64,000 nt of DNA from Pseudomonadales bacterium. GTDB taxonomy: Bacteria > Pseudomonadota > Gammaproteobacteria > Pseudomonadales > Azotimanducaceae. Numbering within the stretch: position 1 is the stretch's first letter; every line of letters begins with the position of its first letter. The DNA lies in assembly GCA_028285415.1 (NCBI GenBank), contig JANQPF010000009.1, forward strand, positions 558,001 through 622,000. Direction: 5' to 3'. Both the position numbers and the translations under genes were made by a program. Positions 17,209 to 57,593 of this stretch are shown in pieces. The notes beneath the pieces are model-generated. The model saw only the letters and a program-made list of their open reading frames with translations. It was not told the origin of the DNA and made no database searches.

Positions 17209-18177
17209 TCAAATTTGTCCGCCGGTACCGGGTTTCAGCAGATCATCCTGATCGCGCCCCTTTACCCAACCCAGGTAGCTGCTGCTTCGATAACCAACAA
17301 ATTGCCGGCCGCGATCCGACAGCTTTGCAGCGGCTTCCGGCGGAACGGCGATGTATTGGTTTTCCTCGGAAGCCAGCCAATTTGCAACATAAGAAGCAAA
17401 GTACCCTGTTCGTGGCGTGCCTATTGTGTTTGGAGCCGCACCATGGAGTGTTCTGGACAGCCACAGCACCACGGATCCTTTCGGCATAGTCGCCTGAACC
17501 ACCTCTTCCTGTTTAGTAATCCGTTCCTCAGGCCACTCGTGGCTGCCCGGCACTACCCGTGTAGCGCCATTTTCCGCAGTAAAATCAGACCCGGCCCACA
17601 TCGTGGAGACAAGGAATTCCGGTATGTGCATACGACTGACGAAGGGTTGGTAAATTGCATTCTCGCGGTGCAGAGGTTGCGGAACCTTCATCCCCTCTCC
17701 CACTTCCAACATGGCACCTATCCCGAGCTTGTAGTAGCTACAGCTGGGTGCTGAATCATCGGGAGATCGAAAGACAATCTGTCCGGCTTCCTTGCTGATC
17801 TCTTCGACATTCATGAGGCCCAGCTCCTCAATGTCGGTTCCGGCCGGCGACGTCCCATCGGCAGCCAGCGCCATCGGGCAAGCCGGCTTCAAAACCAGAT
17901 CCATGACCTCCAATACTTTGTTGTGCAGCGCCAGATTCTCCACGTACAAGGAGCTGTGGGTCGGGAGCGCACTGGTCGTTCGATTCCCTTCCGGCCACAA
18001 CATCGAGTCGGAACTGAGTTCTTTTTCAGTTAAACCATTCAGCGTCTGCTGGTAGATCTGGTCCATGATTTCAGGTGAAACCAGCTCTCGAATGATGACG
18101 CCACCGTTTCGCGTCAGCGATTCGGCTATGTCCCACGCTTCTGAAGCGCCGGTGAATTGCTCGATCTCGTAGCTCAT
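17209..18177 (-). CDS. Phytanoyl-CoA dioxygenase (PhyH) family protein
   Basis: 322 residues from ATG 18177, preceded by GAGGAG at good spacing. The family uses Fe(II) and 2-oxoglutarate to hydroxylate lipids, ectoine, halogenated or other small molecules. The core is recognisable: QPLHRENAIYQ, then ENGATRVVPGSHEWPEE, and the distal His in SRTLHGAAPN, with RTGYFASYVANWL as the 2-oxoglutarate side. The usual metal triad is HxD...H; here the second ligand position is Glu (LHRE), a conservative change that needs checking. The gene follows a TonB receptor gene on the same strand after a 174-bp gap that holds one GC-rich palindrome. Confidence 0.88.
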   Translation of the reverse strand: MSYEIEQFTGASEAWDIAESLTRNGGVIIRELVSPEIMDQIYQQTLNGLTEKELSSDSMLWPEGNRTTSALPTHSSLYVENLALHNKVLEVMDLVLKPACPMALAADGTSPAGTDIEELGLMNVEEISKEAGQIVFRSPDDSAPSCSYYKLGIGAMLEVGEGMKVPQPLHRENAIYQPFVSRMHIPEFLVSTMWAGSDFTAENGATRVVPGSHEWPEERITKQEEVVQATMPKGSVVLWLSRTLHGAAPNTIGTPRTGYFASYVANWLASEENQYIAVPPEAAAKLSDRGRQFVGYRSSSYLGWVKGRDQDDLLKPGTGGQI

Positions 18178-43882: not shown

Positions 43883-44078
43883 TGGTCGGGACGGCAGGAT
43901 TTAACCGCCAACCGCGTTGCTGCGACCGGTCGCAGGGAAAGTGGTGCGCGAGGGAAGATACTGAATCAATAATTGGAAATTGGTCGGGACGGCAGGATTT
44001 AACGCGCCGGGCTCCGGCTGCGACCTAGTGGTCGCTTCTGACAACAATTCAGGACATGAAGTAGTTCGAGTAGAGAAA
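43883..44078 (-). repeat. Two degenerate copies of the tRNA-Pro 3' end at 98-bp steps
   Basis: At 43883 and 43981 the same 23 bp occurs, TGGTCGGGACGGCAGGATTT plus AAC, which is the complement of the last 24 nt of tRNA-Pro(GGG), CCA included, minus one base in the T loop. The third copy, at 44079, is the left island repeat; steps are exactly 98 bp and 98 bp. Each of the two units also has GCTGCGACC at the same offset, inside GC-rich dyads (CTGCGACCGGTCGCAG in the first; GCGACC-TAGT-GGTCGC in the second). No gene is seen here. Confidence 0.75.
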
Positions 44079-44123
44079 TGGTCGGGACGGCAGGATTTGA
44101 ACCTGCGACCACTTGACCCCCAG
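44079..44123 (-). repeat. Left attachment-site repeat (attL-like)
   Basis: These 45 bp are identical to 56459-56503, the 3' part of tRNA-Pro from the first base of the anticodon loop to CCA. The bases just before (GTAGAGAAA versus GTAGGGAAATT) are also alike. Such a repeat is the usual product of tyrosine-recombinase integration at a tRNA gene, with crossover in the anticodon loop. The right copy keeps the tRNA intact. Confidence 0.8.
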
Positions 44124-44448
44124 CGTCCAGACCCGATCAAAAGGCCCACATAGATTACGGGCTACAGGGCGACCTCACACACTTCAATTTAGCTGCGGAT
44201 TCCAATCCCACAGAATCTGCACGGTTGGAAGCCATCCTACGCCTACCAATATCCGACCAGTTTGGATTCGATATATCCGATTACCTCAGTTATCGATACC
44301 AGGCATACCGAGGTATTCCCATGTCACGACGACTCCATCATCGCCTGGAGGTTAGACGCTCGACCCCTTTTTGGTTGATCATCTTGATAGCAGACCGAAC
44401 AATTGTCTACCCTTAATGTTCCTATTCAAAGGATCAGATCTTTTTTAA
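44124..44448. other. Island left end without a recognised gene
   Basis: A plus-strand frame is open from 44113 to 44416 but has no ATG near its beginning (first usable start TTG 44225, or ATG further in) and no ribosome site. Its translation (RLPISDQFGFDISDYLSYRYQ) is not one I recognise. It may be the tail of a gene lost at integration, or chance. Confidence 0.4.
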
Positions 44449-44467
44449 CACTGCGGGCTTTGCAGTG
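44449..44467. terminator. Hairpin after the island operon
   Basis: CACTGC-GGGCTTT-GCAGTG forms a 6-bp stem 34 bp downstream of the last operon gene (44501, minus strand). The sequence after it on the minus strand is TTAAAAAA rather than a T-run, so it is not a textbook intrinsic terminator. Confidence 0.3.
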
Positions 44468-44500
44468 GTGGGCTCCGTAGCTGCGCTAATCAGGAGTGGC

Positions 44501-45229
44501 TCAGACATCAAGTTTAGGGAAAACATATTGTCGTAGCGCTTGCCTCAACCCTTCTCTCACCCAAACGGTTCCCGTGGAGCTTTGCTCGCTCACTTCGAAA
44601 CAGGATTCAGATGCTTGCGCACCGGTCATACCATTTTCTAATGCCTTTAGATCATCAGGTACTATTCGGGTATTCATCAGCCCAGGGCAAAACGCATTCA
44701 GTCTGATGTTTCGAGCTTCAAGAACAGGGGCAAAGCTTTGCACCATACCCACAAGAGCATGCTTGGACATTGCGTAATAGGGATCAAATGGAAGTGGTGA
44801 TAGACCTGCGACTGAAGATGTTACAACGATGTCTCCGCCGCCATTTTCAGCCATGCGCATGACGAGTGCTCGCAATCCATAAAGGGCACCATAGACATTG
44901 ACGCCCATGACCCGCTCACAGGACTTTTCGAGCCAGTCAAATGGGTCGTCTTCAATTGGTGCCTCCGGGGGGCGCGACATGATGCCTGCGTTCAAAAACG
45001 CCTTCTGAGGTACGCCGTGATCGGTCACGAAGGTATCGATCGTCGCCTCTATCACGTCTTGATCACTCACATCTACATTGTAGTAGTGAGCTGAAAACTC
45101 CTCAGCCGCTGCCGTTCCAAGCTCATCGTTAATGTCAAAGAGCGCAACCGAATATCCCCTGTTGGCTAGAAGCTCAACCAGTCCCAGGCCAAGTCCAGAT
45201 GCACCCCCTGTCACCAACCCATACCTCAT
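44501..45229 (-). CDS. Short-chain dehydrogenase/reductase
   Basis: 242 residues. TGGASGLGLGL is the cofactor loop, with Asp (ALFDIND) favouring NAD; FLNAGIMS replaces NNAG; catalytic SSVAG and YAMSK (YxxxK) are present. The C-terminus (VREGLRQALRQYVFP) is longer than in minimal SDRs. Last gene of the island operon; its ATG overlaps the stop of the luciferase-like gene (ATGA). It likely oxidises an alcohol made by the P450 or the other oxidoreductases. Confidence 0.9.
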   Translation of the reverse strand: MRYGLVTGGASGLGLGLVELLANRGYSVALFDINDELGTAAAEEFSAHYYNVDVSDQDVIEATIDTFVTDHGVPQKAFLNAGIMSRPPEAPIEDDPFDWLEKSCERVMGVNVYGALYGLRALVMRMAENGGGDIVVTSSVAGLSPLPFDPYYAMSKHALVGMVQSFAPVLEARNIRLNAFCPGLMNTRIVPDDLKALENGMTGAQASESCFEVSEQSSTGTVWVREGLRQALRQYVFPKLDV

Positions 45230-46122
45230 GACCCAACCCCATCACTCAAGTCACCCACTGCTTCCCAGTAGACTTTTAGCGCATCAATGTGGGCTCGCGG
45301 AGAAGAAAGTCCCTCACCAACACCTTGCAGGCGTTGCGCTCGCATGGAGATGAAATCTGCCCCACGATCTACCCACGCTTGTGCCTCAGACCTCCAATTC
45401 TCTGCGCCCGACTGAAAATTCACCAAAGCTTCGTGACCGAACTCGTTTAGAGCTCTACCGGAACCCTCAAGCTCGGTGTTCATCGACTGATGAGCGCGAA
45501 GATTATCCTCATGCCCACCACCATAGATGAAGCCATCCCCCATTCGCGCTGCACGCCGAAACGCGACCGGTGCAAAGCCTCCGAACCAAATAGGAATTTT
45601 TCTTTTAGGTAAGGGATTCAAACCTGCTCGGTCAATCTTGTGATACTGACCTCGATAGTCGACCAGAGATTCAGCCCAAAGCGCACGCAATACTTCAACC
45701 TGTTCCTCCTGGCGTACACCGCGATCGCTAAATGACTCGTTGAGGCTGTCGTATTCGACATAATTCCACCCCGTGCCCACGCCAAGGCGCAGCCGACCTC
45801 TTGATAGAACATCTACTTCTGCAGCTTGTTTTGCAACCAATGCTGTCTGTCGCTGCGGCAGTATGAGGATGCCGGATGCGAGACCTATACGCTGAGTACA
45901 TGCGGCAAAAAACCCGAAGAGCACAAACAGCTCATGAAAAGGATCTTGTTCTGTGTAAGGACCCCAGAGCTCGGGATCTCTACTTTCGTGTGTTGCTCCT
46001 AAAACGTGATCGTAGGCGAGTATATGAGAGTACCCGAGCCCCTCTGCAGCTTGTGCCCAATCTCTAATGACAACTGGGTCATTGCCTATCTCTTGATGCG
46101 GAAAGACAGCACCTATCCTCAT
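45226..46122 (-). CDS. Luciferase-like (LLM class) oxidoreductase
   Basis: 298 residues. LGYSHILAYDHVLGATHESRDPELWGPYTEQDPFHE at the N-terminus, QRIGLASGILILPQRQTALVAKQAAEVDVLSRGRLRLGVGTGWNYVEYDSL and IPIWFGGFAPVAFRRAARMGDGFIY match the F420-dependent branch. Ribosome site AGGAAG precedes the ATG. It sits between P450 and SDR, spaced 8 bp from the former. F420 or FMN as cofactor cannot be settled; the presence of F420 genes elsewhere in this genome would be informative. Confidence 0.88.
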   Translation of the reverse strand: MRIGAVFPHQEIGNDPVVIRDWAQAAEGLGYSHILAYDHVLGATHESRDPELWGPYTEQDPFHELFVLFGFFAACTQRIGLASGILILPQRQTALVAKQAAEVDVLSRGRLRLGVGTGWNYVEYDSLNESFSDRGVRQEEQVEVLRALWAESLVDYRGQYHKIDRAGLNPLPKRKIPIWFGGFAPVAFRRAARMGDGFIYGGGHEDNLRAHQSMNTELEGSGRALNEFGHEALVNFQSGAENWRSEAQAWVDRGADFISMRAQRLQGVGEGLSSPRAHIDALKVYWEAVGDLSDGVGS

Positions 46123-46130
46123 TCGCTTCC

Positions 46131-47372
46131 TCAGACTTTTAAACTCAGCGGCAGGGAGACAATGCCGCGTAGGGCAAAGCTTGGATGGTGCCTTACCTCA
46201 TCGTGCTTGATCGCGAGGTCTATATCAGAAAAACTGGTCAGCATCGCGCCGAACGCGGCCCGCATTTCTGCACGTGCCAGTTCCGATCCGACACAATGGT
46301 GAATGCCGGAGCCAAACGCCACGTGCGCACCCACGTTCGCACGATCTATGTCAAACTCGTCTGATAAAGGAAATTTGCTTTCGTCATGGTTGGCTGCAGC
46401 GTAGACGAGCATCAGTCGCATGCCTTTCGCGATGCGGTGTCCGTCCAGCTCTGTATCTTCGGTGGCCCAACGAAATAGTCCAGTGACTGGCGATTCAAAG
46501 CGCAACACTTCCTCAACAAACTTCTTGATATCCTCCGGACGTTCTCTAAGCCTCTTTTGCAATGCCTTGTCGCGAGTTAAATGAAAGAGACCAGCAGCAA
46601 TTCCGTTGGTTGTCGTTTCGTTTCCGGCTACAAGAATCTGTTCGATGACGGAGAGTATCTCCTGGTCTGTCAGCGATCGACCACCCTCCACTTTAGCGTT
46701 CGCCACATCAGACAGAATGTCATCAAGTGGATCCACCTGCCGTTCACGAGCACGCTCGATGAGATAGTGTTGCATTTCGACCACCAATCGAGCGGCTGCG
46801 ACAATTTCTTCCTCTTCAGGACCTAGCAATCCCAAGCCGATTAACCAGGCATCACACCAAGCTTTGAAGGTGATGTAGTTATCTCTGGGTATACCAATCT
46901 GATCAGCGATTACTTTTAAGGGCACGGGGACCGCTAGATCAGCCACACCATCACACTGCCCTGCTTCTCGAAAACGATCTATCTCGTCGCCAATAACCGT
47001 GTCTATGTAGTCGCCCATTTCGCGTACCCGTTTGGGACGGAACGCAACGTTTACCAGATCACGATACATACTATGGGCTGGTTCATCACAATTCTGCAGA
47101 GAGGGCGTGCTACGTCCGAAGCCTTCTTCCCGGACGATACGATCCGCTTCATCACTCCTGTTAAGTGCGCTTTCGGAACCAGGCGGTGCCATACTGGAAA
47201 ACAACTTTGGTTGGGTGATGACTTCCCGTAACAAATCGTACTTGCTGATAATGTACATGTCTGGTTCCGGCATGCGATAAACCGGTGCATGCTGGTGCAG
47301 CTCTTTGTAATGCGACCAGGGGCAGTGCTGCACCACAGGATCCATCAGGGATTTTTGAATCTCCGCGCTCAC
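46131..47372 (-). CDS. Cytochrome P450
   Basis: 413 residues from GTG 47372, which has AGGAG six bases before it; a TTG at 47390 is the upstream alternative. P450 hallmarks: I-helix VAGNETTTNG, ExxR in EEVLRFES, and heme loop AFGSGIHHCVGSELARAEM with the Cys ligand. Bacterial class I type, soluble, needing a ferredoxin and reductase that are not encoded nearby. Relatives hydroxylate terpenes, steroids or fatty acids. Flanked by nitroreductase and luciferase-like genes of the same operon. Confidence 0.93.
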   Translation of the reverse strand: MSAEIQKSLMDPVVQHCPWSHYKELHQHAPVYRMPEPDMYIISKYDLLREVITQPKLFSSMAPPGSESALNRSDEADRIVREEGFGRSTPSLQNCDEPAHSMYRDLVNVAFRPKRVREMGDYIDTVIGDEIDRFREAGQCDGVADLAVPVPLKVIADQIGIPRDNYITFKAWCDAWLIGLGLLGPEEEEIVAAARLVVEMQHYLIERARERQVDPLDDILSDVANAKVEGGRSLTDQEILSVIEQILVAGNETTTNGIAAGLFHLTRDKALQKRLRERPEDIKKFVEEVLRFESPVTGLFRWATEDTELDGHRIAKGMRLMLVYAAANHDESKFPLSDEFDIDRANVGAHVAFGSGIHHCVGSELARAEMRAAFGAMLTSFSDIDLAIKHDEVRHHPSFALRGIVSLPLSLKV

Positions 47373-47383
47373 TTCATTCTCCT

Positions 47384-48001
47384 TTACCAACCATTGCTGT
47401 GCACAAACGTTTCCACTGGCTTACGAGCTAGCGGTCCAAAACCGATATCCGGCCAACCCATGGGTAAATACGCTCCGATGTAGACATCATCAGGAATATC
47501 TAGCACCTCGCGTATGAACGGCTCCGCCGCTCTCTGGTATGTCGTGAGACACGTTCCTAAACCCAACGCTCGTGCAGCTACGAGAATGTTCTGAGTCGCC
47601 GGGTAAACGGCAGACCAGACGAAACTCTCATCCGGATTGTCGGGCGGATAAACCGCTCTGCCGCAAACAAGTATGTGTACTGGTATTTCTTCCAGACGTT
47701 TGGCGAGATTAAGAGCGCCTTCCAACATGCGTCTTTGCACTTTATCCACTTGCCCTTCAGCACCACCAAACGCCAGTGTGGCTTGTTCAACCACAGGTGC
47801 CATGACCGACGCGATACCTTCACCCAACCGAGATCTCAACTGGGGATCTGTAACAACAACAAAGTCCCAGCCCTGCGTATTGCCCGGGCTGGGTGCCCGA
47901 GTTGCTGCGTAGAGAACCTTGTCGATCAAAGCTTGATCGACTGGATCCGCTTTGAAATAGCGAATGGCTCTGCAGGTTTCCATAGCTTCAAAGACTTCCA
48001 T
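47384..48001 (-). CDS. Nitroreductase family protein
   Basis: 205 residues. The FMN-binding start RAIRYFKADPVDQALIDKVLYAATRAPSPGNTQGWDFVVV is characteristic, as are VWSAVYPATQNILVAARALGLGTCLTTYQ and GYLPMGWP-type C-terminal sequence. The family reduces nitro groups, quinones, enones or flavins with NAD(P)H, using FMN as a homodimer. The gene starts one base after the stop of the small dabb-type gene. In this operon it might supply reduced flavin to the luciferase-like enzyme or reduce a conjugated double bond. Confidence 0.9.
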   Translation of the reverse strand: MEVFEAMETCRAIRYFKADPVDQALIDKVLYAATRAPSPGNTQGWDFVVVTDPQLRSRLGEGIASVMAPVVEQATLAFGGAEGQVDKVQRRMLEGALNLAKRLEEIPVHILVCGRAVYPPDNPDESFVWSAVYPATQNILVAARALGLGTCLTTYQRAAEPFIREVLDIPDDVYIGAYLPMGWPDIGFGPLARKPVETFVHSNGW

Positions 48002-48002
48002 G

Positions 48003-48344
48003 CTATTTTTCCATCAACCGTTCAGTGATTGGTCCATAAACCTGAGCAGCCACGTCATCTAGGCTGATCGCATCGCTTACATTCATCCCGCCACCCGCGA
48101 CGGCTTCGTTTAGTGCCGTAAGGCACGCATCTGGGTCTTCTGTTTCAAGTTCATAAATTGCGAGGTACTTATGTACAGACGCTTCCCCGCGCACCGGATC
48201 ACCAGCCACAGCGAAGCGTTGCGCGGCTACGAATCCGGGCACCTGCAGCACTTCCCCCATGTGGATCTCGTTGTACCACTGGTTGTATTCATGATCCCGT
48301 CCCGCAACGGCATTGCTATATACCGCCATAATGTATTTACTCAT
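48003..48344 (-). CDS. Small EthD/dabb-type protein
   Basis: 113 residues with AGGAG before the ATG. The motif NQWYNEIHMGEVLQVPGFVAAQRF is typical of ferredoxin-like alpha-beta barrel proteins related to EthD and stress-responsive A/B-barrel proteins. Such proteins occur in catabolic operons with P450s and oxygenases and are thought to bind or transform intermediates. No catalytic residue can be named. Confidence 0.78.
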   Translation of the reverse strand: MSKYIMAVYSNAVAGRDHEYNQWYNEIHMGEVLQVPGFVAAQRFAVAGDPVRGEASVHKYLAIYELETEDPDACLTALNEAVAGGGMNVSDAISLDDVAAQVYGPITERLMEK

Positions 48345-48381
48345 TCCGAATCTCCTGTGGTTCCGTATCTCATAACATCAG

Positions 48382-49788
48382 CTACTCATTGCGGCCCGCT
48401 TGAAGTGCTGCCTGCTGACCGGCGATGCGGCCAAAGACAATCGCGTTTGCAATAGAATTGCCGCCACCAATGTAACGCTCGCCGAGCACGTCACCTGTGG
48501 TTTCTCCAGCCGCATAGAGGCCTTCGATAACCTGGCCTCGCGTATCCAGCACTTGCGTTCGTTTGTTTATTCGAAGACCCGTGGACGTGAGGCATACGAT
48601 CGCCGGGAAGATCTCGACGGCATAGTACGGAGGTGTACTGACTGGCTTCATTTCTTCATGCGATTTGAAGAACATGCTATCGCCACCTTCCTCAATGTCC
48701 GCGTTGTACCGGGTTAGCGTCGCGTTTAACGACCCTGGTCGGATTCCGCACTTCTCTTCCAACTCGGCAAAAGAGTCAGCCTGCAAAACTTTGCCTGTTT
48801 TAAGCTGACTGTCGATTTCGTCCGTTACCCAATTGAGCGATATGATTCCTGCAGCGAACGCGTCTTCGTATTGCTTGTTTGGTTTGGCCGTTTTGCGTGC
48901 TTCATCATCAAACACAGCAAAACAGGAACCACCTGTCTGGGCTGCGATAACACCGGACATCACGGCGTACTCCGCCATCTCGTTCACAAACCGACGACCC
49001 TCTCGGTTAATGTAGACAAGCCACCCAGGCACAAAGACTTCGAGCTCTTTCTTGAAGTTCGGCGTCGTGAGCAACAATCCACGGTTGAATCCAACGATGT
49101 CGGCGCCCGCTTGCTCGCCGAGCACCAAGCCGTCACCCAAACAGTGTTCGTTCCCGATATACCAGACTTTCTCAGCCTGTGAGGCTGCGTCAGGGTAGTA
49201 CTTGTTAAGGAAGTAAGGGTTTGCGCCGAAGCCTCCCGTCGCCAAGACTACCGCGTTTGCTGTGATGACAGCATCGCCGGTCTTAATACCGCGTACAGCT
49301 CCAGCTGTGTCTACCACCAGGTCTGTGAGACGTGAATTTAGGACAACATCAACATTGCGCTTACTCACCGTGCGATCTAAGACTTCAGCAATTTCTGCCC
49401 CCCTACCCGCTGCAGGGTGGCCTCTAGGTACACTCTCCACACCTGAGCTGTAGAGTTCCGACGGTGGGAAATTAGCGCCCAGTTCAATGAGCCACTCCAG
49501 ATCTTTTGCCGCGTTTTCACACAGGGTGCGCGCCAGGGACGCGTCGACTCGATACTGATTGAGCGTCATGTAGTACTCAAACATCGCGTCTACCGAATCG
49601 GTGATACCTCTGGCTTCCTGCACACTCGTCCCGGCAGCGTAGTACACGCCACCCGATAGGGCGGTTGATCCACCTAACTTCTCATCTGCCTCAATCAGTG
49701 CAACAGTGGCATGTGCATCCGCCGCCTCAATAGCAGCAGCCATACCAGCACCACCGCCCCCAACAACGATTACGTCATAATCTGCCAT
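48382..49788 (-). CDS. FAD-dependent dehydrogenase, fumarate reductase/ketosteroid dehydrogenase type
   Basis: 468 residues from ATG 49788, AGGAG seven bases before; a frame to 49836 has none. FAD motifs: DVIVVGGGGAGMAAAIEAAD, EKLGGSTALSGGVYYAAGT, VVLATGGFGAN, and C-terminal GLYAAGETTGDVLGERYIGGGNSIANAIVFGRIAG. This is the fumarate reductase/succinate dehydrogenase flavoprotein fold, which includes 3-ketosteroid delta-1-dehydrogenases. It probably introduces or reduces a C=C bond next to a carbonyl. The ring substrate is not readable, but steroid- or terpenoid-like compounds would fit with the P450. Confidence 0.9.
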   Translation of the reverse strand: MADYDVIVVGGGGAGMAAAIEAADAHATVALIEADEKLGGSTALSGGVYYAAGTSVQEARGITDSVDAMFEYYMTLNQYRVDASLARTLCENAAKDLEWLIELGANFPPSELYSSGVESVPRGHPAAGRGAEIAEVLDRTVSKRNVDVVLNSRLTDLVVDTAGAVRGIKTGDAVITANAVVLATGGFGANPYFLNKYYPDAASQAEKVWYIGNEHCLGDGLVLGEQAGADIVGFNRGLLLTTPNFKKELEVFVPGWLVYINREGRRFVNEMAEYAVMSGVIAAQTGGSCFAVFDDEARKTAKPNKQYEDAFAAGIISLNWVTDEIDSQLKTGKVLQADSFAELEEKCGIRPGSLNATLTRYNADIEEGGDSMFFKSHEEMKPVSTPPYYAVEIFPAIVCLTSTGLRINKRTQVLDTRGQVIEGLYAAGETTGDVLGERYIGGGNSIANAIVFGRIAGQQAALQAGRNE

Positions 49789-49810
49789 CAACCCACTCCT
49801 GTTCTTTGTG

Positions 49811-50545
49811 CTAAGCGCCGTGTTGCCAGTCGACATCTCCGTAGAGATCAGCTTTTACCCGGTCGCAGTATTCAACCAGGGACGAATAAGACCGCGCTAT
49901 TTCAACGTGTGGATTTGGTAGAGGGAAATGAATGAATGAAGCCAAAATAGAGTAGAGGCCAGCATCAATCGTTGAAGGCGCATCATCAAAAAGAAAAGGT
50001 TTATCGCCGAGGAAGTGCGCTAAAGCATCCAGCTTATCGCGCAGCGCCTGACGTACAAACTCGATGTCGTATCGGCCTAAACGGTAGCCATGCAGCATGC
50101 CGTTGATGACTCTATCTTTTGCTGCCTCTATCGCCATAGCTATTTGATCCTCTGGAAGATCTCGCATCGCAAAGCGCACAAAGGATTCAGCGTCCCCATC
50201 CACCCAACGTCCATAAATCATGATGTAGAAAAGCTCGTGCTCGCATAGCGTCTTAACTAAAGTGCCAAGCGACTTCTGCGCCACATTCAAACGCTCATCA
50301 TTTAAGGCGTCCCCATGCTTTGCTTTTAGATATTCGATGATGATCGATGAGTCGCCAATGGTCTCGTTATCAACTTCGACGAATGGGATCAGCCCTCGAG
50401 GCGCCTGCGCAGTCAGTTCATTTATTGCGCCAAGCTTGCTCTCGTAACTGATGTCGGCCATGCGCAACCAGGTTTCCAGCCGGTAAATGAACGGACTGAC
50501 ATCCCCTAACGATTCATATCTCCCGGTTCTTGATAGTGTCAGCAT
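49811..50545 (-). CDS. Glutathione S-transferase family protein
   Basis: 244 residues. The thioredoxin-like half carries APRGLIPFVEVDNETIGDSSIIIEYL, with the cis-Pro and the glutathione-contact Asp-Ser, in the style of Fax/metaxin-like GSTs. The all-helical half follows. It starts 3 bp after the TetR stop and is the first enzyme of the island operon. It may conjugate, isomerise or dehalogenate a pathway intermediate. A fragment of a second GST is at 52587-52742. Confidence 0.87.
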   Translation of the reverse strand: MLTLSRTGRYESLGDVSPFIYRLETWLRMADISYESKLGAINELTAQAPRGLIPFVEVDNETIGDSSIIIEYLKAKHGDALNDERLNVAQKSLGTLVKTLCEHELFYIMIYGRWVDGDAESFVRFAMRDLPEDQIAMAIEAAKDRVINGMLHGYRLGRYDIEFVRQALRDKLDALAHFLGDKPFLFDDAPSTIDAGLYSILASFIHFPLPNPHVEIARSYSSLVEYCDRVKADLYGDVDWQHGA

Positions 50546-50548
50546 GTC

Positions 50549-51166
50549 TTAATTCCTGATGATCAAAGCGGTGAAGGCATCAATGAACTGCTCAAATCTA
50601 TTGGTGCCGGAATCTATGAGAACGTTTGCAGCAACGGCATTAGTCTGCATTGCGCGAAGCAATGGACCTGCCACCTTCGGATCTGTGCGTTTGGGCAAAG
50701 TGCCATCAGCTATGGCATCTTCGATGATGGCTTCAAATAACGCGTCCAGCTGACTAATTGCCTTATTGACAGGTTCGAAGCGCAAAGGCTCACGTACGGA
50801 TTCGAGTTGCATTGCGAGCCCTAACCTTTGCATCACGCCATCTTCCCGGTAGAGCTCAATACACGCAGCCGAGATATTGGTTAACCGGTCGCGCCATGAA
50901 CCACCCTGATTCACAGCCGCCTGAAAGCGCACCAAGATCTGTTCGTACATATCGGTAGCTGCTTCGACAAGAATGTCCGTCTTGGAAGGGAAATACCTAT
51001 AGATCGCAGGTGCGGTGAGTCCTGCAGCCTTAGCGATCTCAGAAAGACTTGTATCGGCAACACCCTTTCGCGCAACGAGTTCTGCACCAACGGTAACGAT
51101 GAGCCTTCGCGTTTCCTCGCCAGAAACTCCCTCAGGTCGTCCCGGCTTGCGAGCAAATCCAGCCAT
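50549..51166 (-). CDS. TetR/AcrR family transcriptional regulator
   Basis: 205 residues. Helix-turn-helix: RRLIVTVGAELVARKGVADTSLSEIAKAAGLTAPAIYRYFPSKTDI. The N-terminus is basic (RKPGRPEG), common in this family. It is the first gene of the eight-gene island operon, so it is probably autoregulated through the AT-rich dyad 18 bp upstream of its ATG. Its ligand should be the pathway substrate or an intermediate. Confidence 0.9.
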   Translation of the reverse strand: MAGFARKPGRPEGVSGEETRRLIVTVGAELVARKGVADTSLSEIAKAAGLTAPAIYRYFPSKTDILVEAATDMYEQILVRFQAAVNQGGSWRDRLTNISAACIELYREDGVMQRLGLAMQLESVREPLRFEPVNKAISQLDALFEAIIEDAIADGTLPKRTDPKVAGPLLRAMQTNAVAANVLIDSGTNRFEQFIDAFTALIIRN

Positions 51167-51183
51167 TCATATATCCTCACATC

Positions 51184-51208
51184 AATAAATAAATAATATT
51201 TATTTATT
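51184..51208 (-). promoter_or_regulatory. AT-rich dyad at the head of the island operon
   Basis: AATAAATAAAT-AAT-ATTTATTTATT is a perfect inverted repeat with 11-bp arms, 18-42 bp upstream of the TetR ATG. It may be both operator and -10 region. Simple AT-rich sequence lowers its weight as a specific site. Confidence 0.45.
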
Positions 51209-51272
51209 ATTTCGGGTCAAGTAAAATCTTTGAAGCCTTGGTCGCACTTTTACGAAAGCAATCAATCAATAC

Positions 51273-51294
51273 CTCCCAGTGAGGCAACTGGGAG
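51273..51294. repeat. 8-bp-stem inverted repeat between island gene blocks
   Basis: CTCCCAGT-GAGGCA-ACTGGGAG is a perfect stem of 8 bp with a 6-nt loop, in the 397-bp space between the TetR gene and the luciferase-like gene. No T-run follows. It could be a leftover of an insertion or a recombinase site; its function is unknown. Confidence 0.35.
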
Positions 51295-51357
51295 AGTTCG
51301 GAAAAATCGACGTCTACTTGTTCCGTTTGATCCCACGAGACCGATTACAGGGATTGA

Positions 51358-51549
51358 CCACTCTCGAAAAAAGTTCTTGACCAGGGAGAGCACATTGAGC
51401 TGCAGGACCTTCTGGTGGCGATTAACCAGACGGGTGCCGACGATGAGTTGTTTGTCTTCCCTGGTAAGCGCACCCGTATGGGTCAACGTTTGCGACGCTG
51501 GTGCCCGGGGCTGCTCTGGAAGAACGTACACGATGCTGAAAGATTTTAA
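51358..51549 (+). pseudogene. Possible C-terminal fragment of a tyrosine recombinase
   Basis: 63 codons open between TGA and TAA, without a usable start. The translation begins PLSKKVLDQ, then LFVFPGKRTRMGQRLRRW and NVHDAERF. Order and spacing resemble the central part of phage-type integrases (VPLS...L, LFP, HDxRxxF), but the catalytic Arg after HD and the Tyr are absent. If correct, this is the decayed integrase of the island. The match is by eye only and could be coincidence. Confidence 0.35.
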
Positions 51550-51563
51550 GACAGGAGAAAGAA

Positions 51564-52583
51564 ATGGGTGACCTGAAGATTGGTCTGCAACTGGGGTACT
51601 GGGGCGCGGGTCCCAACCCCAAAATGGTGGAAATGGCACAGGAGGCTGAGAAGCTTGGCTACGATGCTGTCTTTACCGCAGAAGCCTGGGGTTCTGATGT
51701 ATTTACGCCGCTCGCGTGGATTGGAGCGCATACCGAACGCATTCGACTCGGTACCGGCATCGCGCAGTTGTCGGCGCGCGCGCCAACAGCAACAGCCATG
51801 GCCGCGATGACTCTGGATCACCTTTCCGGTGGCCGCGTAATTCTGGGACTGGGTGTATCAGGACCCCAGGTAGTGGAGGGCTGGTATGGTCGACCCTTCG
51901 GTAAACCGCTGGCCCGAACCAGAGAGTATGTGAACATCATTCGCCAGGTGCTGGCACACCAGGAGCCGGTCTCCAATGATGGGGAACATTATCCGTTGCC
52001 TTACACGGGTGAGGGGGCCTGGGGGTTGGGTAAACCACTCAAATCTATCGTTCATCCGCTGCGTGATGATCTGCCGATCTTCCTCGGTGCCGAAGGCCCC
52101 AAAAACGTCACCATGACCGCCGAAATTGCGGATGGCTGGTTGCCGCTATATTACTCGCCGTATCGGCAGGAGGTCTATGCGGATCAGTTGAAAGGCGCAA
52201 AGCCCGGTTTTGAAATCATGCAGGGCATCCCCGTCATCATTAATGATGATATTGAAGAAGCGCTGATTCCGATCAAGCGCAGTCTTGCGCTTTATATTGG
52301 CGGCATGGGTGCGAAAGATCGCAATTTCCACAACGAACTGGTCAAGCGCATGGGCTTCGAACAAGAAGCTGAAACCATTCAAGATCTGTTCCTTAACGGC
52401 AAGAAAGACGAGGCGGCGAAGGCGGTGCCGACGCAACTGGCGGACGAGATTTCCCTCGTGGGCTCTGTTGATCGCATCAAGGATCGTTTGAATGCCTGGC
52501 GTGAGACGCCCGTGACTTCACTACTGGTGGGTACACAGAGCAAAGACGAGCTACGCTCCTTCGCAGAACTTGTGCTCGGTTAA
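51564..52583 (+). CDS. Luciferase-like (LLM class) F420-type oxidoreductase
   Basis: 339 residues, AGGAG six bases before the ATG. LGYDAVFTAEAWGSDVFTPLAWIGAHTERIRLGTGIAQLSARAPTATAMAAMTLDHLSGGRVILGLGVSGPQVVEGWYG is the full luciferase-like core of the F420-dependent group. It is alone on the plus strand, between decayed sequence on both sides, and seems intact. It lies just before the GST fragment, so an older catabolic block may have stood here. Confidence 0.9.
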   Translation: MGDLKIGLQLGYWGAGPNPKMVEMAQEAEKLGYDAVFTAEAWGSDVFTPLAWIGAHTERIRLGTGIAQLSARAPTATAMAAMTLDHLSGGRVILGLGVSGPQVVEGWYGRPFGKPLARTREYVNIIRQVLAHQEPVSNDGEHYPLPYTGEGAWGLGKPLKSIVHPLRDDLPIFLGAEGPKNVTMTAEIADGWLPLYYSPYRQEVYADQLKGAKPGFEIMQGIPVIINDDIEEALIPIKRSLALYIGGMGAKDRNFHNELVKRMGFEQEAETIQDLFLNGKKDEAAKAVPTQLADEISLVGSVDRIKDRLNAWRETPVTSLLVGTQSKDELRSFAELVLG

Positions 52584-52586
52584 TAA

Positions 52587-52742
52587 GTGTCTGCCGCAGC
52601 GCCCGATATCAAGTTATTTGAACTGGGCCCGACTCGATCAGGTCGGGTTCGGTGGGCGCTGCGGGAATCAGGTCTGGAATATGAGTCACTCGGCAAAGAC
52701 ATCATACCGGTAGGTATCCAAGTAATCGTCAGATGTACTTGA
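52587..52742 (+). pseudogene. Truncated glutathione S-transferase (N-terminal fragment)
   Basis: A 51-codon frame with GTG start, 3 bp after the luciferase-like gene, reads IKLFELGPTRSGRVRWALRESGLEYESLGKDI, the first strand-helix-strand of a GST thioredoxin fold, then loses similarity and stops. The remaining 150 or so residues of a GST are missing in all frames nearby. It shows that the gene pair luciferase-like/GST was once longer. Confidence 0.6.
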
Positions 52743-52826
52743 TTCGCCGATTGTTGAAAGGTCACCTGCACGGATTAGGTACGCCGATCATCGACACAGG
52801 GATGAGTGTCAACATAGCCGAGAATT

Positions 52827-52982
52827 CTAGACTCGTTGGTGCATCACCGACTTGTCGTCTGGTGAACGAAGCTCGACGACGATTTGCCACGGCCCTTCTG
52901 AAACCAATTGCCCTTCACCCGCTTTGACCGGCACGTTGCGAAGTGCTGCTTGAGCTCTGGCATTCTCGACCCAGCTGGCCAT
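52827..52982 (-). CDS. Possible small protein, 51 residues
   Basis: ATG at 52982 follows GGAGA at 6-bp spacing. The translation (MASWVENARAQAALRNVPVK...) is polar with an acidic C-terminal part and no membrane segment. I recognise no family. It could be a remnant of a longer gene. Confidence 0.3.
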   Translation of the reverse strand: MASWVENARAQAALRNVPVKAGEGQLVSEGPWQIVVELRSPDDKSVMHQRV

Positions 52983-53220
52983 TCGAAATCTCCATCAAGG
53001 AATCCCGTCCAGCATCCAATCAATTGCTAGCCTGGACAACAAAAAATCGCCACGAAAGGTATACAACAACCTGCTCTATGTACTGCTATACCTCCGGGAA
53101 TCCCACTAACCATGCGTGTTTGCCAGTGACCAAACTGGTCTGTGGTAGAGAAATGTGCAGAGTTCATTTCCGTTCCTTGAGAGATCCTTGGCCATAAATA
53201 CTCGACAAGGAGATAGAGAA

Positions 53221-53439
53221 ATGAAAATGAACAACTACAACAGATTGCTAGATGCACTCGATGGCATCTTCGGTTTCAACGATCAAGTGAAGTCAACATT
53301 CCGCAAAGTTCGTCAGTTCTTTGATGAGCGGACGAACGAGCAAGTCGTGATCATCGAATATCGAGTCAGAAGAGACGAGCTGGCTAAGAGGAAGCTTCTA
53401 CGTCAGGTCCATCATGCCGCGAAGCGTAAGGGTCACTGA
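53221..53439 (+). CDS. Small basic protein of unknown function
   Basis: 72 residues from ATG 53221, with AAGGAG nine bases upstream; a longer frame from 53155 lacks one. The sequence (MKMNNYNRLLDALDGIFGF...) has an amphipathic N-terminal helix, a short beta-like stretch VVIIEYRVRRDELAKRK and a basic C-terminus (HHAAKRKGH), which suggests nucleic-acid contact. Not recognised. It converges with the PHP-ATPase gene 77 bp away. Confidence 0.45.
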   Translation: MKMNNYNRLLDALDGIFGFNDQVKSTFRKVRQFFDERTNEQVVIIEYRVRRDELAKRKLLRQVHHAAKRKGH

Positions 53440-53516
53440 AGCATGTTTCGAGAGGGTACGCTTCGGGTCTCAAATGCCGGGACCCAATCAGATCGCGTAT
53501 GATCCACTACGCCTGT

Positions 53517-56051
53517 TCATAAGTCAGGCTGCGACACATCGCTTGCCTTCCAGATTTGATAGATAGACCTTCGCCTCTCGAATGCTTCTGGTCCGCCTTC
53601 CATTATCTTGATGATCTTTGACTGACACTCTTTTGAATCAACACTTCCAGAAGCGAGCGAGAATACTTCATCTTCCACATGACACGCTGTTACTGATTCA
53701 GCGTCGCCCAACACCGGAAAGTTGGCATTGTGGGTTGCAAAGATGAACTGCCGGTTTGTCTTTATTCGCCTAACTAGCTTAACGACTTCTTCATAGACCG
53801 TCTGTGAATCCAAATCGTCTTCGGGTTGATCAACCAGAAGTAAATCGTTGTCTTCCTGGCTTAGCAGAAACAGCATCATCGCAGAGGCACGTTGGCCTAG
53901 CGAGTGAGATCGAAGAGGTTTTCCGTTGTAAGTTACATCGTAGCGATTTGGCACCTGATACGTTAGAAGCGCTGCAAGATTAGAAACAAAGAAATCAATA
54001 TAGACGTGAGATAGGCTTTTAGCGTTTTCCGATGCTTTGTCGAGATCCTTATAAATGTCGCCGAAATCGGCGTACGCATCGCTTATGGCCCCATAAGCCT
54101 CATGCCGAATGTTGCTGCCACGAAAGGTGTCTTCCATCTTGCCACGAAATTTCTCCTTATCGCCTTTGAAGCCAGCATCGATCTGTAGAGAAGGTTGTGC
54201 AGCGTTGATTTTTCCTAGTTCCGCAGCAATAAACTTGTATTCAGCGTGCCATGAATCATTCAACGCTGCGTAGCTTACATCTACTGCTTTCAGCTTTTCG
54301 GAGCGCTTAGAAGTTCTTCTCTTGAGTTCGGTAATCTCGGCTTCAAGTTCAGACTTTTTCTCAGCTAACCTTATGTAGTCGGTAGGTTCTATCGACGTAA
54401 CACCTTGGCTCGCCAGCGCCTTTACGAGCTCGCGTTCGATTTCGGCGAACTCCTCTTTCAATCCGTCTTTGACGTTCACCAGTTCAGTCTTGAGAGAATC
54501 TAAGTCCTTCACTAGCGATTCTATGCTGGCCACGTTTGCAGAAACCGCCGCCGTCGATTGTTTTAGCTCTTCTAGCTTAGCGTTGTATTTTTGGAACAGC
54601 TCGCCGTTGTATTTCGATTCATGAGCTTCGATTTCCGAGAAACTTTCAATTGCACTTTCGACTGAACTCTCGATGTCGCTCAGCCACGCCTGTGCGGCCT
54701 GCTCAACAGATTCACAGAAGCCAACGTCGTTCCCGAAATCAACCTGCTTGTCCAGTTTCCCCTTAACACCATGCTTATCGAATTGATCTAATCTGAATGT
54801 GACGTCCTTAAGTTCAGACTCAGTAACGGCAAGTTGATCACTATCAGTTTGGACCGCGTTGAGGTTTTCAATCGCATCTTTTAGTGCGGCTTCTTTTTCG
54901 GCTATGTCGTCTCTATATGGCGCTAGTTCATCTCCAACAAGCTTTTCAACAAGATCGCGACCAAACTCTTTACCTGCAGCTGACAGGTCCTTCTGACCAA
55001 AATATAGAGGGCGTCGCACAATCGTCTCAGTGATCGACACACCCGGCTGTAGTTCATCGTTTATGTATACCTCTGGCTGATGGTCCAGAATACGCCTGAT
55101 CTCAAATTGGGTACCCAATCGATCAGTTGCTTCGATTACGATCTTGCCGCCGCTTCTTAGGACAAACGGAATGAGTTCGTCTTTGTAATCTCGATCCTGT
55201 GCCTTTTCGCCAAAATCGATGTTCAGACCGTACCTAAGGCATTCGAGAACGGATGACTTTCCGCTACCCTGGATACCAATGAGGCAGTTTAGATGCGGCG
55301 AAAATGCGACGCGCTTACCATCAAAAACACCGCCTTCAAATCGAATTGCATCAATTCGAGAGTGCTCTGGATGTGGAGAATCGTCAGGACGGACTCGAAA
55401 GTCAGGCTCCGTTAGCGCGTACTTGACGGCATCGAAGCTGAACTCTCCTATCTGTAAGTAACAGGCCTTACCTCTTCCAATCTCATCAAGGTTTTTTGCG
55501 TCACAACCTTCAAGCTCAGCTGGGTAAATGTCCCCCCACCAGCTTTTCACTTTTACTCGGTTGGGTTTGCTCGGTGTATCGTGGGTTCTCACCTTTTGAA
55601 AACCTAAGCAGTACTTCTTGATTAGCTGATGTTGGGCCAGAGCTTCCATTTTACCGCCGGCAACTTCATGCCAGAGTCCACTCGCAGCTTCTACGTGAGC
55701 AAAAACTATGAAGAAATCTCGGTCCATCGCCTCCAGCTTTTGAAGCGTAGTAATCAAATCATGATTACATCGCCCATTCTCATGTTCGTATTGATCGGGG
55801 GTCTTGCCTGCAAACACACTTGTTAGGAAGGGATTGATGTGATCTTGTCCATTCTCAATCCATTCTTCCGAAAACACGACCAGCGTGTGCACCCCGTTGG
55901 CACCATCGTTTACTGACAGTTCCACGCCTGGAAGCAGTCCAATACCTGATTTGCGGGCACGCTTTCTGAGCGCTCGAAACTCCCCGGCATCAAATTTATT
56001 GTGGTTTGTGATAACTCCCAATCCGATTCCGGCAGCTTCGAGGGTGCTCAC
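53517..56051 (-). CDS. PHP-SMC/AAA-type ATPase of the TrlF kind
   Basis: 844 residues from the first canonical start, GTG 56051. The N-terminal 190 residues are a PHP phosphoesterase-like domain (VITNHNKFD, PGVELSVNDG, FFIVFAHVEAASG). Then an SMC/ABC-type ATPase: Walker A LIGIQGSGKSSVLE, a long coiled coil (about residues 380-600), signature region HSLGQRASAMMLFLL, Walker B LLLVDQPEDDLDS and the switch His in IFATHNAN. Such PHP-ATPase fusions are found in genomic islands and are suspected to act on nucleic acids, perhaps in defence or repair. Its position at the tRNA end of the island fits a cargo or maintenance gene. The N-terminus is incomplete; see the next entry. Confidence 0.85.
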   Translation of the reverse strand: MSTLEAAGIGLGVITNHNKFDAGEFRALRKRARKSGIGLLPGVELSVNDGANGVHTLVVFSEEWIENGQDHINPFLTSVFAGKTPDQYEHENGRCNHDLITTLQKLEAMDRDFFIVFAHVEAASGLWHEVAGGKMEALAQHQLIKKYCLGFQKVRTHDTPSKPNRVKVKSWWGDIYPAELEGCDAKNLDEIGRGKACYLQIGEFSFDAVKYALTEPDFRVRPDDSPHPEHSRIDAIRFEGGVFDGKRVAFSPHLNCLIGIQGSGKSSVLECLRYGLNIDFGEKAQDRDYKDELIPFVLRSGGKIVIEATDRLGTQFEIRRILDHQPEVYINDELQPGVSITETIVRRPLYFGQKDLSAAGKEFGRDLVEKLVGDELAPYRDDIAEKEAALKDAIENLNAVQTDSDQLAVTESELKDVTFRLDQFDKHGVKGKLDKQVDFGNDVGFCESVEQAAQAWLSDIESSVESAIESFSEIEAHESKYNGELFQKYNAKLEELKQSTAAVSANVASIESLVKDLDSLKTELVNVKDGLKEEFAEIERELVKALASQGVTSIEPTDYIRLAEKKSELEAEITELKRRTSKRSEKLKAVDVSYAALNDSWHAEYKFIAAELGKINAAQPSLQIDAGFKGDKEKFRGKMEDTFRGSNIRHEAYGAISDAYADFGDIYKDLDKASENAKSLSHVYIDFFVSNLAALLTYQVPNRYDVTYNGKPLRSHSLGQRASAMMLFLLSQEDNDLLLVDQPEDDLDSQTVYEEVVKLVRRIKTNRQFIFATHNANFPVLGDAESVTACHVEDEVFSLASGSVDSKECQSKIIKIMEGGPEAFERRRSIYQIWKASDVSQPDL

Positions 56052-56195
56052 GTAGTCAGAGACGAACGAGTTTTCTTCGCCAGAGTATTGAAATTCTTTG
56101 TCCGCGCGCGTGTGTAGATGAAAATCTGCTCGAACCCAGGAGCTTCCATACTCGAAGGGACTATCCGTGTCTGATTGTTGGGTGCTGGTGTTGAT
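56052..56195 (-). other. In-frame upstream part of the PHP domain without ATG/GTG/TTG start
   Basis: The frame stays open from the GTG at 56051 back to a TGA at 56265-56267. It encodes SPFEYGSSWVRADFHLHTRAD, where FHLH is the first PHP metal motif (HxH) that the domain needs. No ATG, GTG or TTG occurs in these 71 codons. An ATC at 56193-56195, which would give a normal-looking start (xNTSTQQSDTD), and an ATT at 56235-56237 are the only candidates. Either a rare start is used or the original ATG is mutated and the gene is damaged. Confidence 0.6.
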
Positions 56196-56346
56196 GGCCT
56201 TCAGAGCCCCGAGTCTATTGAAAAGGCGGTCCTCAATGCAGAAATGGGGACGAAATGGGCTTTTTCAAGACCAACCAAATGTTGCGATAGGTAGATGCAG
56301 TTCCGAGGCTATGGACCATCGGGTAGGAGTTGAGCCAGATTCCAAA

Positions 56347-56391
56347 CTGGTAGGATTCTGACTAAATCAAAGTCTACCTATATCCTACCAG
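56347..56391. repeat. 10-bp inverted repeat near the tRNA end of the island
   Basis: CTGGTAGGAT (56347-56356) and ATCCTACCAG (56382-56391) are perfect inverted copies 25 bp apart, 68 bp from the right attachment repeat. Related GGTAGG/TACCTA words lie around. This could be an arm-type integrase site, an excisionase site or a promoter element of the PHP-ATPase gene; no gene is seen between 56265 and 56458. Confidence 0.4.
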
Positions 56392-56458
56392 TCGACCAGG
56401 AATAGGAATCAGAGGTACACCGAGCACCATCTAACCGCTTGAATCAAGTAGGGAAATT

Positions 56459-56535
56459 TGGTCGGGACGGCAGGATTTGAACCTGCGACCACTTGACCCC
56501 CAGTCAAGTGCGCTACCAGACTGCGCCACGCCCCG
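56459..56535 (-). tRNA. tRNA-Pro (anticodon GGG)
   Basis: The minus strand folds into a complete cloverleaf: acceptor CGGGGCG/CGTCCCG, D stem GCGC/GCGC, anticodon stem CTTGA/TCAAG with loop CTGGGGG (anticodon GGG), T stem GCAGG/CCTGC with loop TTCAAAT, discriminator A and encoded CCA. 77 nt in all. Its last 45 nt are repeated at 44079-44123 as the left end of the island, so this gene is the integration site and stays whole. Confidence 0.97.
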
Positions 56536-56609: not shown

Positions 56610-57593
56610 TCAATCGATACGTCCAAAGACGCTGAATGCTTGAGATGGCAGCCGTCCCTGCCAGACCTCATCCTCCCCTACCGGCTGATACACCACGCGG
56701 AACTGATCACTCCAATCATCAAAGAGCTCACCCAGCTCGCCGTCACGACCTGCAATGTGCACCCGCCATAGCGGCAGGCTCAGATCCACGTTGTAGCCCA
56801 CCTCCTCACCCGGCGCCAATCGACGGACTGAGGTTGAGAATCCGTCAGCGCATCTTCGCGGCGTTGTCAGGGGTGCGAATGAAGGATCGAACGCGGCCAC
56901 CAGCACCAGCTGGCAGAGCTCTTCGGATTCGGCAATGTCCACCGGTTCGCTGGAAACGTTGGCCAGCGTAAACCACAGCTGCGGGCTGAGCGGCGTTTCC
57001 AGGTCCGGAGGATTGCGGTCCGTATCACGCCGGTTGCTGCGCAGCACCTCGAGACGCGCGCCCAACTCGCTCCAACGGTAGTCTTTGACCACGCCCGTGC
57101 CATCGCTGCCGACGGCAACGAGCACCTCCATCGGCACCTGCACCTCACCGCGACGCCCTCGCTTGTCTTCGATGTCTTGCCCACGACCCTGTTGCACAAA
57201 TAGCTGCTCAATGCCGTATTTGACGTCGACGTGCGTATCGCGCCAGAGCTGACGCCCGCTGACCCTGCCTTTTAGGTATGTCCCGCTGGATGGCGGATCG
57301 GGCAGAAGATCGACGAATTCGTAGGTCCCCCGCACCGTTTCGCGCAGCTCAGCGTAGACGACCGCACCTCTGGGAAACTCATCCTGGATCTTCAGGTGCT
57401 CTGGTACCGGCGCTCGGTTGATGGCGTAGCGCAATCTGACGAAGTCACCGCGAAACGGATCGCGCGGGTCGATGGGCGCAGTTGGCAGCCACAGCTCATC
57501 GCCCATGCTGCGGATGTATTCGCGGTTGCCGGCCATGTAGGCGAGCACAGCCACCTGCAACGCAAGGACGAGGTAAAGCGCAACCTTACGCAT
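56610..57593 (-). CDS. GDYXXLXY domain membrane-anchored protein
   Basis: 327 residues from ATG 57593; a longer frame to 57740 runs inside the upstream gene. One N-terminal membrane helix (VALYLVLALQVAVLAYMAG) and the family motif as GDFVRLRY at about residue 53. The rest is beta-rich and probably periplasmic. Proteins with this motif are regularly encoded next to DUF2157 membrane proteins, as here with an 8-bp overlap. Function unknown. The C-terminal half contains an extra domain (SEELCQLVLVAAFDPSFAP). Confidence 0.85.
   Translation of the reverse strand: MRKVALYLVLALQVAVLAYMAGNREYIRSMGDELWLPTAPIDPRDPFRGDFVRLRYAINRAPVPEHLKIQDEFPRGAVVYAELRETVRGTYEFVDLLPDPPSSGTYLKGRVSGRQLWRDTHVDVKYGIEQLFVQQGRGQDIEDKRGRRGEVQVPMEVLVAVGSDGTGVVKDYRWSELGARLEVLRSNRRDTDRNPPDLETPLSPQLWFTLANVSSEPVDIAESEELCQLVLVAAFDPSFAPLTTPRRCADGFSTSVRRLAPGEEVGYNVDLSLPLWRVHIAGRDGELGELFDDWSDQFRVVYQPVGEDEVWQGRLPSQAFSVFGRID

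Follow-up and report, generated by a model that had tools for sequence, protein, structure and literature searches.

How does a block of accessory genes come to lie at a transfer RNA (tRNA) gene when the block encodes no recognisable enzyme that could have inserted it? The question is raised by a 12.4-kb block at tRNA-Pro(GGG) in a Pseudomonadales bacterium of the family Azotimanducaceae (assembly GCA_028285415.1), where an initial annotation made from the letters of the DNA had proposed an acquired genomic island. The window, that is the whole stretch analysed, comprises 64,000 nucleotides (C2:558001-622000 of the 5.97-Mb own genome, G000). We consider it highly probable that positions 44079-56503 hold an integrated element that lacks an integrase, belongs to a family with tRNA-Pro(GGG) as its specific target, and is mobilized in trans, similar to a cis-mobilizable element (CIME).

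A repeat of the tRNA 3' end delimits the block

The sole tRNA that ARAGORN predicts in the window is tRNA-Pro(ggg). Its positions 33-77, from the anticodon loop through CCA, recur at the far end of the block with 45 of 45 bases identical, as the initial annotation had described. The repeat can be extended in neither direction, and the chance expectation for exact 45-mer pairs is 2.7e-18 in 64 kb. Searched against the rest of the own genome, the tRNA gave weak matches only (best E 0.001). Each copy adjoins a conserved end of the block; together they provide the following landmarks, in window coordinates, with attL and attR as the attachment (att) sites.

56459..56535, minus strand: tRNA-Pro(GGG), the target gene, intact (ARAGORN)
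56459..56503, minus strand: attL, tRNA 3' part from anticodon loop to CCA (45/45 against 44079-44123)
56336..56458, minus strand: L-end, the conserved left end, about 123 bp, directly behind the tRNA (74-79% to the L-ends of genomes G018 and G006)
56373..56391, minus strand: arm-like motif CTGGTMGGATATWGGTAGG in the L-end, one mismatch (motif search)
56347..56357, plus strand: inverted copy of the arm-like core (with up to two mismatches allowed, found in 7 of 9 L-ends)
44124..44292, minus strand: R-end, the conserved right end, about 169 bp (79% to the G018 and G006 R-ends over 169 bp)
44242..44261, minus strand: arm-like motif in the R-end, exact (motif search)
44079..44123, minus strand: attR, displaced tRNA 3' part (exact repeat)

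The initial annotation had named the same 12.4 kb beside tRNA-Pro in all relatives as a finding that would speak against acquisition. This is not what was seen: in the tRNA-Pro loci fetched from relatives, the island genes are absent beyond paralogues at 24-33% identity.

Conserved ends recur with unrelated cargo

The L-end also stands directly behind tRNA-Pro in G061, G066 and G064, and the own, G018 and G006 copies continue into unrelated genes. The core of the arm-like motif is found at position 68 after CCA in all nine full L-ends and is present in 17 of 19 R-ends; among three partial L-ends, one has the exact core and the remaining two have only two-mismatch matches, to be read against a background of 28 matches per 100 kb at up to two mismatches. 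The motif ACTGGTMGGATAYNGGTAGR, with at most one mismatch, gave 11 matches in 5 of 58 genomes, the own included (reversed-pattern control, two), all 11 inside L- or R-ends already aligned by blastn. Within the own genome it occurs twice, both times at the window element (reversed control, one). When public genome contigs were scanned with the motif, 11 stretches were recovered, ten of them with similarity to an R-end or L-end, and three of the four genomes found through the motif have an L-end. A Novosphingobium stretch (L118) was dropped for an R-end similarity of just 27 bp, and a stretch from a bin labelled Anaerolineae (L122), whose R-end similarity suggests a misplaced contig, was excluded from the argument. 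No stretch with the motif was found in the viral contigs.

The proposal of a crossover at the anticodon loop agrees with the R-ends: in eight aligned stretches from several genomes, CTGGGGGTCAAG is where their resemblance to the tRNA begins. The tRNA-Pro of G063 differs in its 3' half, and this different half recurs in two repeats on another G063 contig; because no L- or R-end of the family was detected on that contig, G063 bears on the site and not on the element family. Together, the start point and the G063 repeats are consistent with an exchange inside the anticodon loop that displaces the resident half.

Both borders were located for five elements: the own (12.4 kb), three in G018 (4.9, 6.8 and 12.7 kb) and one in G061 (4.4 kb). 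The G018 elements follow one another in one orientation within 41 kb behind tRNA-Pro (L 1-125, R 4712-4884; L 20397-20512, R 26924-27088; L 27919-28025, R 40365-40530), and their ends are adjoined by modified tRNA repeats. The G061 element is complete at tRNA-Pro and is followed by a 98-bp unit of a kind that is also found in the window. R-end, tRNA repeat and L-end directly adjoin one another on contig C105 of G006, which is not linked here to the tRNA of that genome. Gene content behind tRNA-Pro differs among nearly all genomes compared; G004 and G029 have a common 4.6-kb block (92% identity), which begins within 122 bp of tRNA-Pro in G029; in G004 it starts only after some 4.1 kb, with other DNA and an R-end in between.

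The cargo of the five elements is mostly metabolic, with oxidoreductases, hydrolases, glutathione S-transferases (GST), PhyH proteins, cupins, and glutamine synthetase-like and aminotransferase-like enzymes, besides TetR and sigma-54 regulators and several proteins that match no family. Pfam detected no recombinase, phage or transfer family among the proteins scanned. These were ten proteins and a small open reading frame (ORF) of the own element, leaving out an overlapping 125-aa ORF at 51262-51639, and the ORFs of at least 120 aa in the other four (4 of 4, 6 of 6, 11 of 12 and 5 of 5, the one left out lying in the 12.7-kb element and extending over two loci).

A second conserved right-end type, CTTGTTGTG-like, was seen in G018 (5855-5996, 20201-20352, 27768-27873) and G025 (736-890, 6558-6715; tRNA-sense positions behind tRNA-Pro). 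Four of the five lead straight into a hairpin-bearing tRNA repeat, and G018 5855-5996 does not. As judged from the alignments, these ends would form a second element subfamily at the same site. On contig C20 of G032, two tRNA-Pro-like 3' ends 16.5 kb apart (L062:671-718 and 17220-17273) have a different sequence (CCGGGGGT...CAGCCCGACCA) with the same 16 bases after it, and perhaps bound another tRNA-anchored island.

An element probably mobilized in trans

The earlier statement that no full integrase remains was confirmed: none was found by Pfam among the ten island proteins, and the nine PF00589 matches of the own genome all lie outside contig C2. Islands at tRNA genes usually, though not universally, have an integrase of their own. 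The array contigs of G000, G025, G006 and G004 have no PF00589 match, nor is there one near the array on the large G018 contig. Like a CIME, the window element has att sites on both sides and, at the level of a Pfam search, neither integrase nor transfer genes.

Integrases do occur behind an L-end in G066. Its tRNA-Pro and L-end are followed by a short prokaryotic Argonaute (pAgo) pair (PADLOC pAgo_I, 600 bits; partner, 542 bits), a DUF3644 protein, two tyrosine integrases (PHROG integrase, 189 and 218 bits), a helicase-like gene with below-cut-off matches only, and the contig end. Between the pAgo pair and the DUF3644 gene lies a two-ORF module with a homologue at 52827-53439 in the window (81% identity over 273 bp, 73% over 382 bp), which ties the window island to this integrase-bearing neighbour. 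In viral contigs, relatives of the G066 integrase used as query were found in three loci at 28-31% identity.

We propose that a circular form of the element would carry the R-end, the 3' half of tRNA-Pro and the L-end as attP, and that a tyrosine recombinase would cross over in the anticodon loop, where the tRNA would be completed by the incoming 3' half and the resident half would be displaced to the far end as attR. The arm-like motifs in both ends are likely recombinase binding sites, and the recombinase, not being encoded by the element, would act in trans from an autonomous relative. Each new arrival would shift its predecessors outward from the tRNA, which would account for the stacking, and the elements may still be mobile.

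Several observations weigh against this interpretation. No cognate integrase was identified among the genomes searched: the G066 integrase, tried as the shared enzyme, was found in one of 46 genomes, G066 itself, and an integrase on C21 of the own genome in two of 40, the own included. The G066 contig reaches its end before any R-end, so its integrases are unproven as part of the same element. Among genomes of the genus lacking the L-end, G007 and G024 have integrase fragments of another type behind tRNA-Pro (PF13356, Arm-DNA-bind_3, in G007; PF22022, Phage_int_M, and a broken PF00589 match in G024), so elements of more than one kind make use of the tRNA gene. The L-end itself was found in only three of the 16 genus genomes whose sequence continues for at least 60 bp past tRNA-Pro (own, G018, G006; five further ones with 0-52 bp were excluded from the count) and in none of 11 order-level genomes, and two of the 19 R-ends, including that of the third G018 element, are without the core motif at up to two mismatches. 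A phage or plasmid vehicle was sought with the R-end as query and rejected: 59 phage and 17 plasmid records matched, none covering 80% of the query, and among the matches listed (5 of 59 and 5 of 17) only the tRNA half and at most a few adjoining bases were matched, and the arms were not. The G+C content is low to the left of the island as well (0.546 for 1-43882, with 0.612 right of the tRNA), so composition fails to delimit it. Finally, no strain with an empty site was found among the genomes examined; what comes nearest is indirect and from other species, namely the tRNA-Pro loci of G010 and G029 and the position of the block common to G004 and G029.

Gene content and assembly of the element

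Between its ends, the element encodes the following genes.

53517..56177, minus strand: TrlF-family PHP-ATPase (NF045780, 569 bits, profile 2-944 of 944; listed ORF starts at 56051, exact start uncertain)
53221..53439, plus strand: small ORF 1, 72 aa, backbone remnant common to G066 (homology)
52827..52982, minus strand: small ORF 2, 51 aa, common to G066 (homology)
51564..52583, plus strand: luciferase-like monooxygenase (PF00296)
50549..51166, minus strand: TetR regulator (PF00440)
49811..50545, minus strand: GST-like protein (PF17172/PF17171)
48382..49836, minus strand: FAD-dependent oxidoreductase (PF00890)
48003..48344, minus strand: 113-aa protein without family (no Pfam, no NCBIfam match)
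47384..48001, minus strand: nitroreductase (PF00881)
46131..47390, minus strand: cytochrome P450 (PF00067)
45226..46122, minus strand: luciferase-like monooxygenase (PF00296)
44501..45229, minus strand: short-chain dehydrogenase (PF00106)

Against the TrlF-family profile, the listed 844-aa ORF scored 520 bits, and the frame extended upstream to 56177 reached the score given above, over the curated cut-off of 350. The extension contains no ATG, GTG or TTG start, so the true start is probably another codon. The top PADLOC model for the ATPase is Ppl (102 bits); since the NCBIfam Ppl cut-off is missed (166 of 1000 bits), phage defence is put no higher than a likely role. The gene was found in one of 46 genomes searched, the own. 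The remaining enzymes are probably degradation genes for the oxidation of a substrate, and a 71% relative of the FAD-dependent oxidoreductase is encoded in G066, where its 6.7-kb contig has none of the other island genes. The last 71 residues of small ORF 1 have no family match in NCBIfam, PADLOC, PHROGs or Pfam, and no relative of this ORF was found in the viral contigs or plasmids searched.

The two-ORF module separates the ATPase from the catabolic genes, and it bears on the claim that everything between the repeats arrived together. Acquisition at tRNA-Pro is upheld by the repeat and by the absence of the genes there in relatives; arrival as a single block is not, the two halves differing in G+C (0.479 for 52850-56458, 0.520 for 44124-52849) with a backbone remnant between them. 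There is a serious chance, if one short of even, that a defence element consisting of the L-end, the ATPase gene and the module was joined by a catabolic segment, or had its distal half replaced by it. In G066 the pAgo pair fills the same place between L-end and module, which favours such a history, and the lack of any detected tRNA repeat or element end between the halves speaks against it. Two acquisitions would be compatible with an integrase-less element moved in trans.

The module and the missing integrase could also be read as signs of decay: the island, or a satellite, would once have been autonomous, with integrases like those of G066, and would now be a fixed relic. We regard this as rather unlikely. 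The attL and attR copies are still identical, the motif is kept in both ends, and four other complete elements with different cargo are likewise without a recognised recombinase, so a non-autonomous lifestyle fits better than repeated recent decay.

Secondary repeats carry a hairpin in the T-arm

Beyond attR, at exact 98-bp steps from 44079, the tRNA 3' end is repeated twice more in modified form, with copies starting at 43981 and 43883 that the initial annotation did not mention.

43981..44078, minus strand: 98-bp unit 2, ending in a tRNA 3' end with the hairpin insert CCGG-AGC-CCGG
43883..43980, minus strand: 98-bp unit 3, ending in a tRNA 3' end with the hairpin insert CAAC-GCG-GTTG

The final 45 bp of unit 3 are identical to a G018 repeat, and the unit is homologous to the one in G061. 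The sequence left of attR matches the G061 unit behind its attR strongly (z 18); behind tRNA-Pro, it matches G010 moderately (z 5.8) and G029 weakly (z 3.0), only G010 of these two beating all 200 shuffles, and the compared stretches contain tRNA-derived bases. It did not align with the first 200 bp behind the tRNA in other genomes. G029 and G010, which belong to other species, have units of the tRNA 3' end directly behind tRNA-Pro. At these loci (L064 1-4981 and L031), the units are in tandem, about 110-135 bp long, and one unit in each genome has a palindrome, GATGATCC-GGATCATC or GCTGATCC-GGATCAGC, in a layout like that of the 98-bp units of the window.

A 14-nt insert occurs at the same place of the T-arm in ten distal repeats of equal length from six genomes. 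These yield eight distinct alignment rows, with at least four variant repeats of a length other than 45 left out (G018 27119-27165 and ~40583-40613; G025 892-930; G063 C2 15776-15835). Pairing of the 4-bp hairpin holds in 96.9% of cells, and at three of its four pairs both partners vary. For hairpin and T-stem together, sliding the partner drops pairing to 6-58%, and none of 500 shuffles reached the observed pairing or covariation score; the two-sided pair count was reached by 25 of 500 and the further pair types by 286 of 500, all for a structure chosen from the same sequences on which it was tested. Independent palindromic insertions could mimic such covariation. In single-strand folding of five repeats, unit 2 had a z of -2.7 and the others, at -0.1 to -1.1, were not unusually stable. 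The two window units are probably remnants of earlier events.

A more speculative reading, which we hold only tentatively and as less probable than decay, makes tRNA-Pro(GGG) a cassette platform parallel to the integron. Integrase-less catabolic and defence cassettes with standard ends would enter at the tRNA and line up co-oriented one behind another. The secondary att sites left over would bear a structure-conserving hairpin in the T-arm that sets them apart from the functional tRNA half, thereby steering new cassettes or preventing collapse of the array.

A true integron-like array, its sites recognised by an integron integrase encoded elsewhere in the genome, is very improbable. The own genome encodes such an enzyme (TIGR02249, 460 bits), the G018 elements are tandem and co-oriented, and both window units have a hairpin and a GTTRRRY box. 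The sites are nevertheless tRNA halves, the RYYYAAC box is found in none of the four window stretches tested, attR is without GTTRRRY, and the elements measure 4-13 kb; the usual integron cassettes are far smaller. With both attC boxes together in none of the four stretches, this explanation is largely refuted. The integron integrase gene lies at ~419395-420375 of G000:C24 (L162:1896-2876), near the contig end, and G025 also has one (L168).

The least probable alternative, that the tRNA fragments arose by tandem duplication or as tRNA-trailer repeats and the cargo is ancestral, draws on the resemblance of the 98-bp units to repeats behind tRNA genes, such as those at E. coli tyrT, and is refuted for the 12.4-kb block by the absence of the cargo beside tRNA-Pro in the relatives examined and the recurrence of the ends with unrelated cargo; for the 98-bp units alone, such an origin is possible.

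Surroundings of the locus

A conserved gene block precedes tRNA-Pro in relatives of the genus. The own copy, with pheT, ihfA, a below-cut-off MerR-family gene and a 239-aa gene without family, lies beyond the window, at 67-71 kb in window coordinates (pheT, ihfA and the MerR-like gene at 67.8-71.1 kb). In four relatives (loci L052, L053, L056 and L059), the match to the 239-aa gene ends within about 200 bp of the tRNA (tblastn); in the own genome, about 10 kb of other genes lie between this core gene (67.1 kb) and tRNA-Pro. This stretch, 56536-67000, is absent from the same place in several relatives, and two of its genes (56610-57740 and 57586-58881) sit 30 kb behind the tRNA in G025; the upstream side is thus variable too.

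To the left of the island, G+C is lowered over a long region, 5000-43880, to about 0.51-0.59 per kb with a mean near 0.54; judged by the raw ORFs, many of its genes look metabolic. No element end and no tRNA fragment was detected in this region except for the 98-bp units. It is possibly older accreted cargo.

Discussion

Elements of this kind are already known; what is new is this family, its ends and the covarying hairpin in the secondary repeats. The P. aeruginosa islands of PAGI-97A type at tRNA-Pro(ggg) are bounded by a 49-bp perfect repeat of the tRNA 3' end and have the P4-type integrase IntG at their 3' border (PMC8373256). Tied to the same tRNA, the window element likewise has a perfect 3'-end repeat, and diverse cargo occurs at the one site; contig C2, unlike islands with IntG, is without an integrase match. 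The P. aeruginosa core defence hotspot cDHS1 is described with pheS, pheT, ihfA, a MerR regulator and a proline tRNA (PMC10250203). On that description the window locus corresponds to cDHS1: it lies near pheT, ihfA and a below-cut-off MerR-like gene, and its cargo includes a TrlF ATPase related to Ppl. The window site differs in also having catabolic blocks with conserved ends. Given these published islands and the hotspot, and the related elements with metabolic or defence cargo, the combination that the initial annotation called unusual appears less odd.

The ssrA islands of Dehalococcoides are tandem, bounded by 3'-end repeats of an RNA gene and loaded with catabolic cargo, and 15 of them, without an integration module, were suggested to be cis-mobilizable (PMC3146451). 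The present family shares all these features; the Dehalococcoides islands differ in their target, transfer-messenger RNA, and in using a serine recombinase (PMC3146451). Additive flexible genomic islands and tycheposons also grow by cassettes added at tRNA genes and are marked, like the window element, by repeats of the tRNA 3' end (PMC10872708, PMC7771536, PMC5217437). The tycheposons described in one of these papers carry a tyrosine recombinase (PMC10872708), and none was found in the window island or on C2; long conserved ends with arm-like motifs are not described in the available parts of these three papers. A search of the open-licence PMC literature, in the text it returned, found no description of this family, its conserved ends or hairpin-bearing secondary sites.

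With ends as recognisable as these, cargo blocks can be delimited even where no integrase is present. The ends can be used to search these gammaproteobacteria for catabolic and defence genes that are possibly moved in trans, and the family offers a test of how enzyme-less islands keep moving. It also extends the defence-hotspot locus of P. aeruginosa to another lineage and to metabolic cargo.

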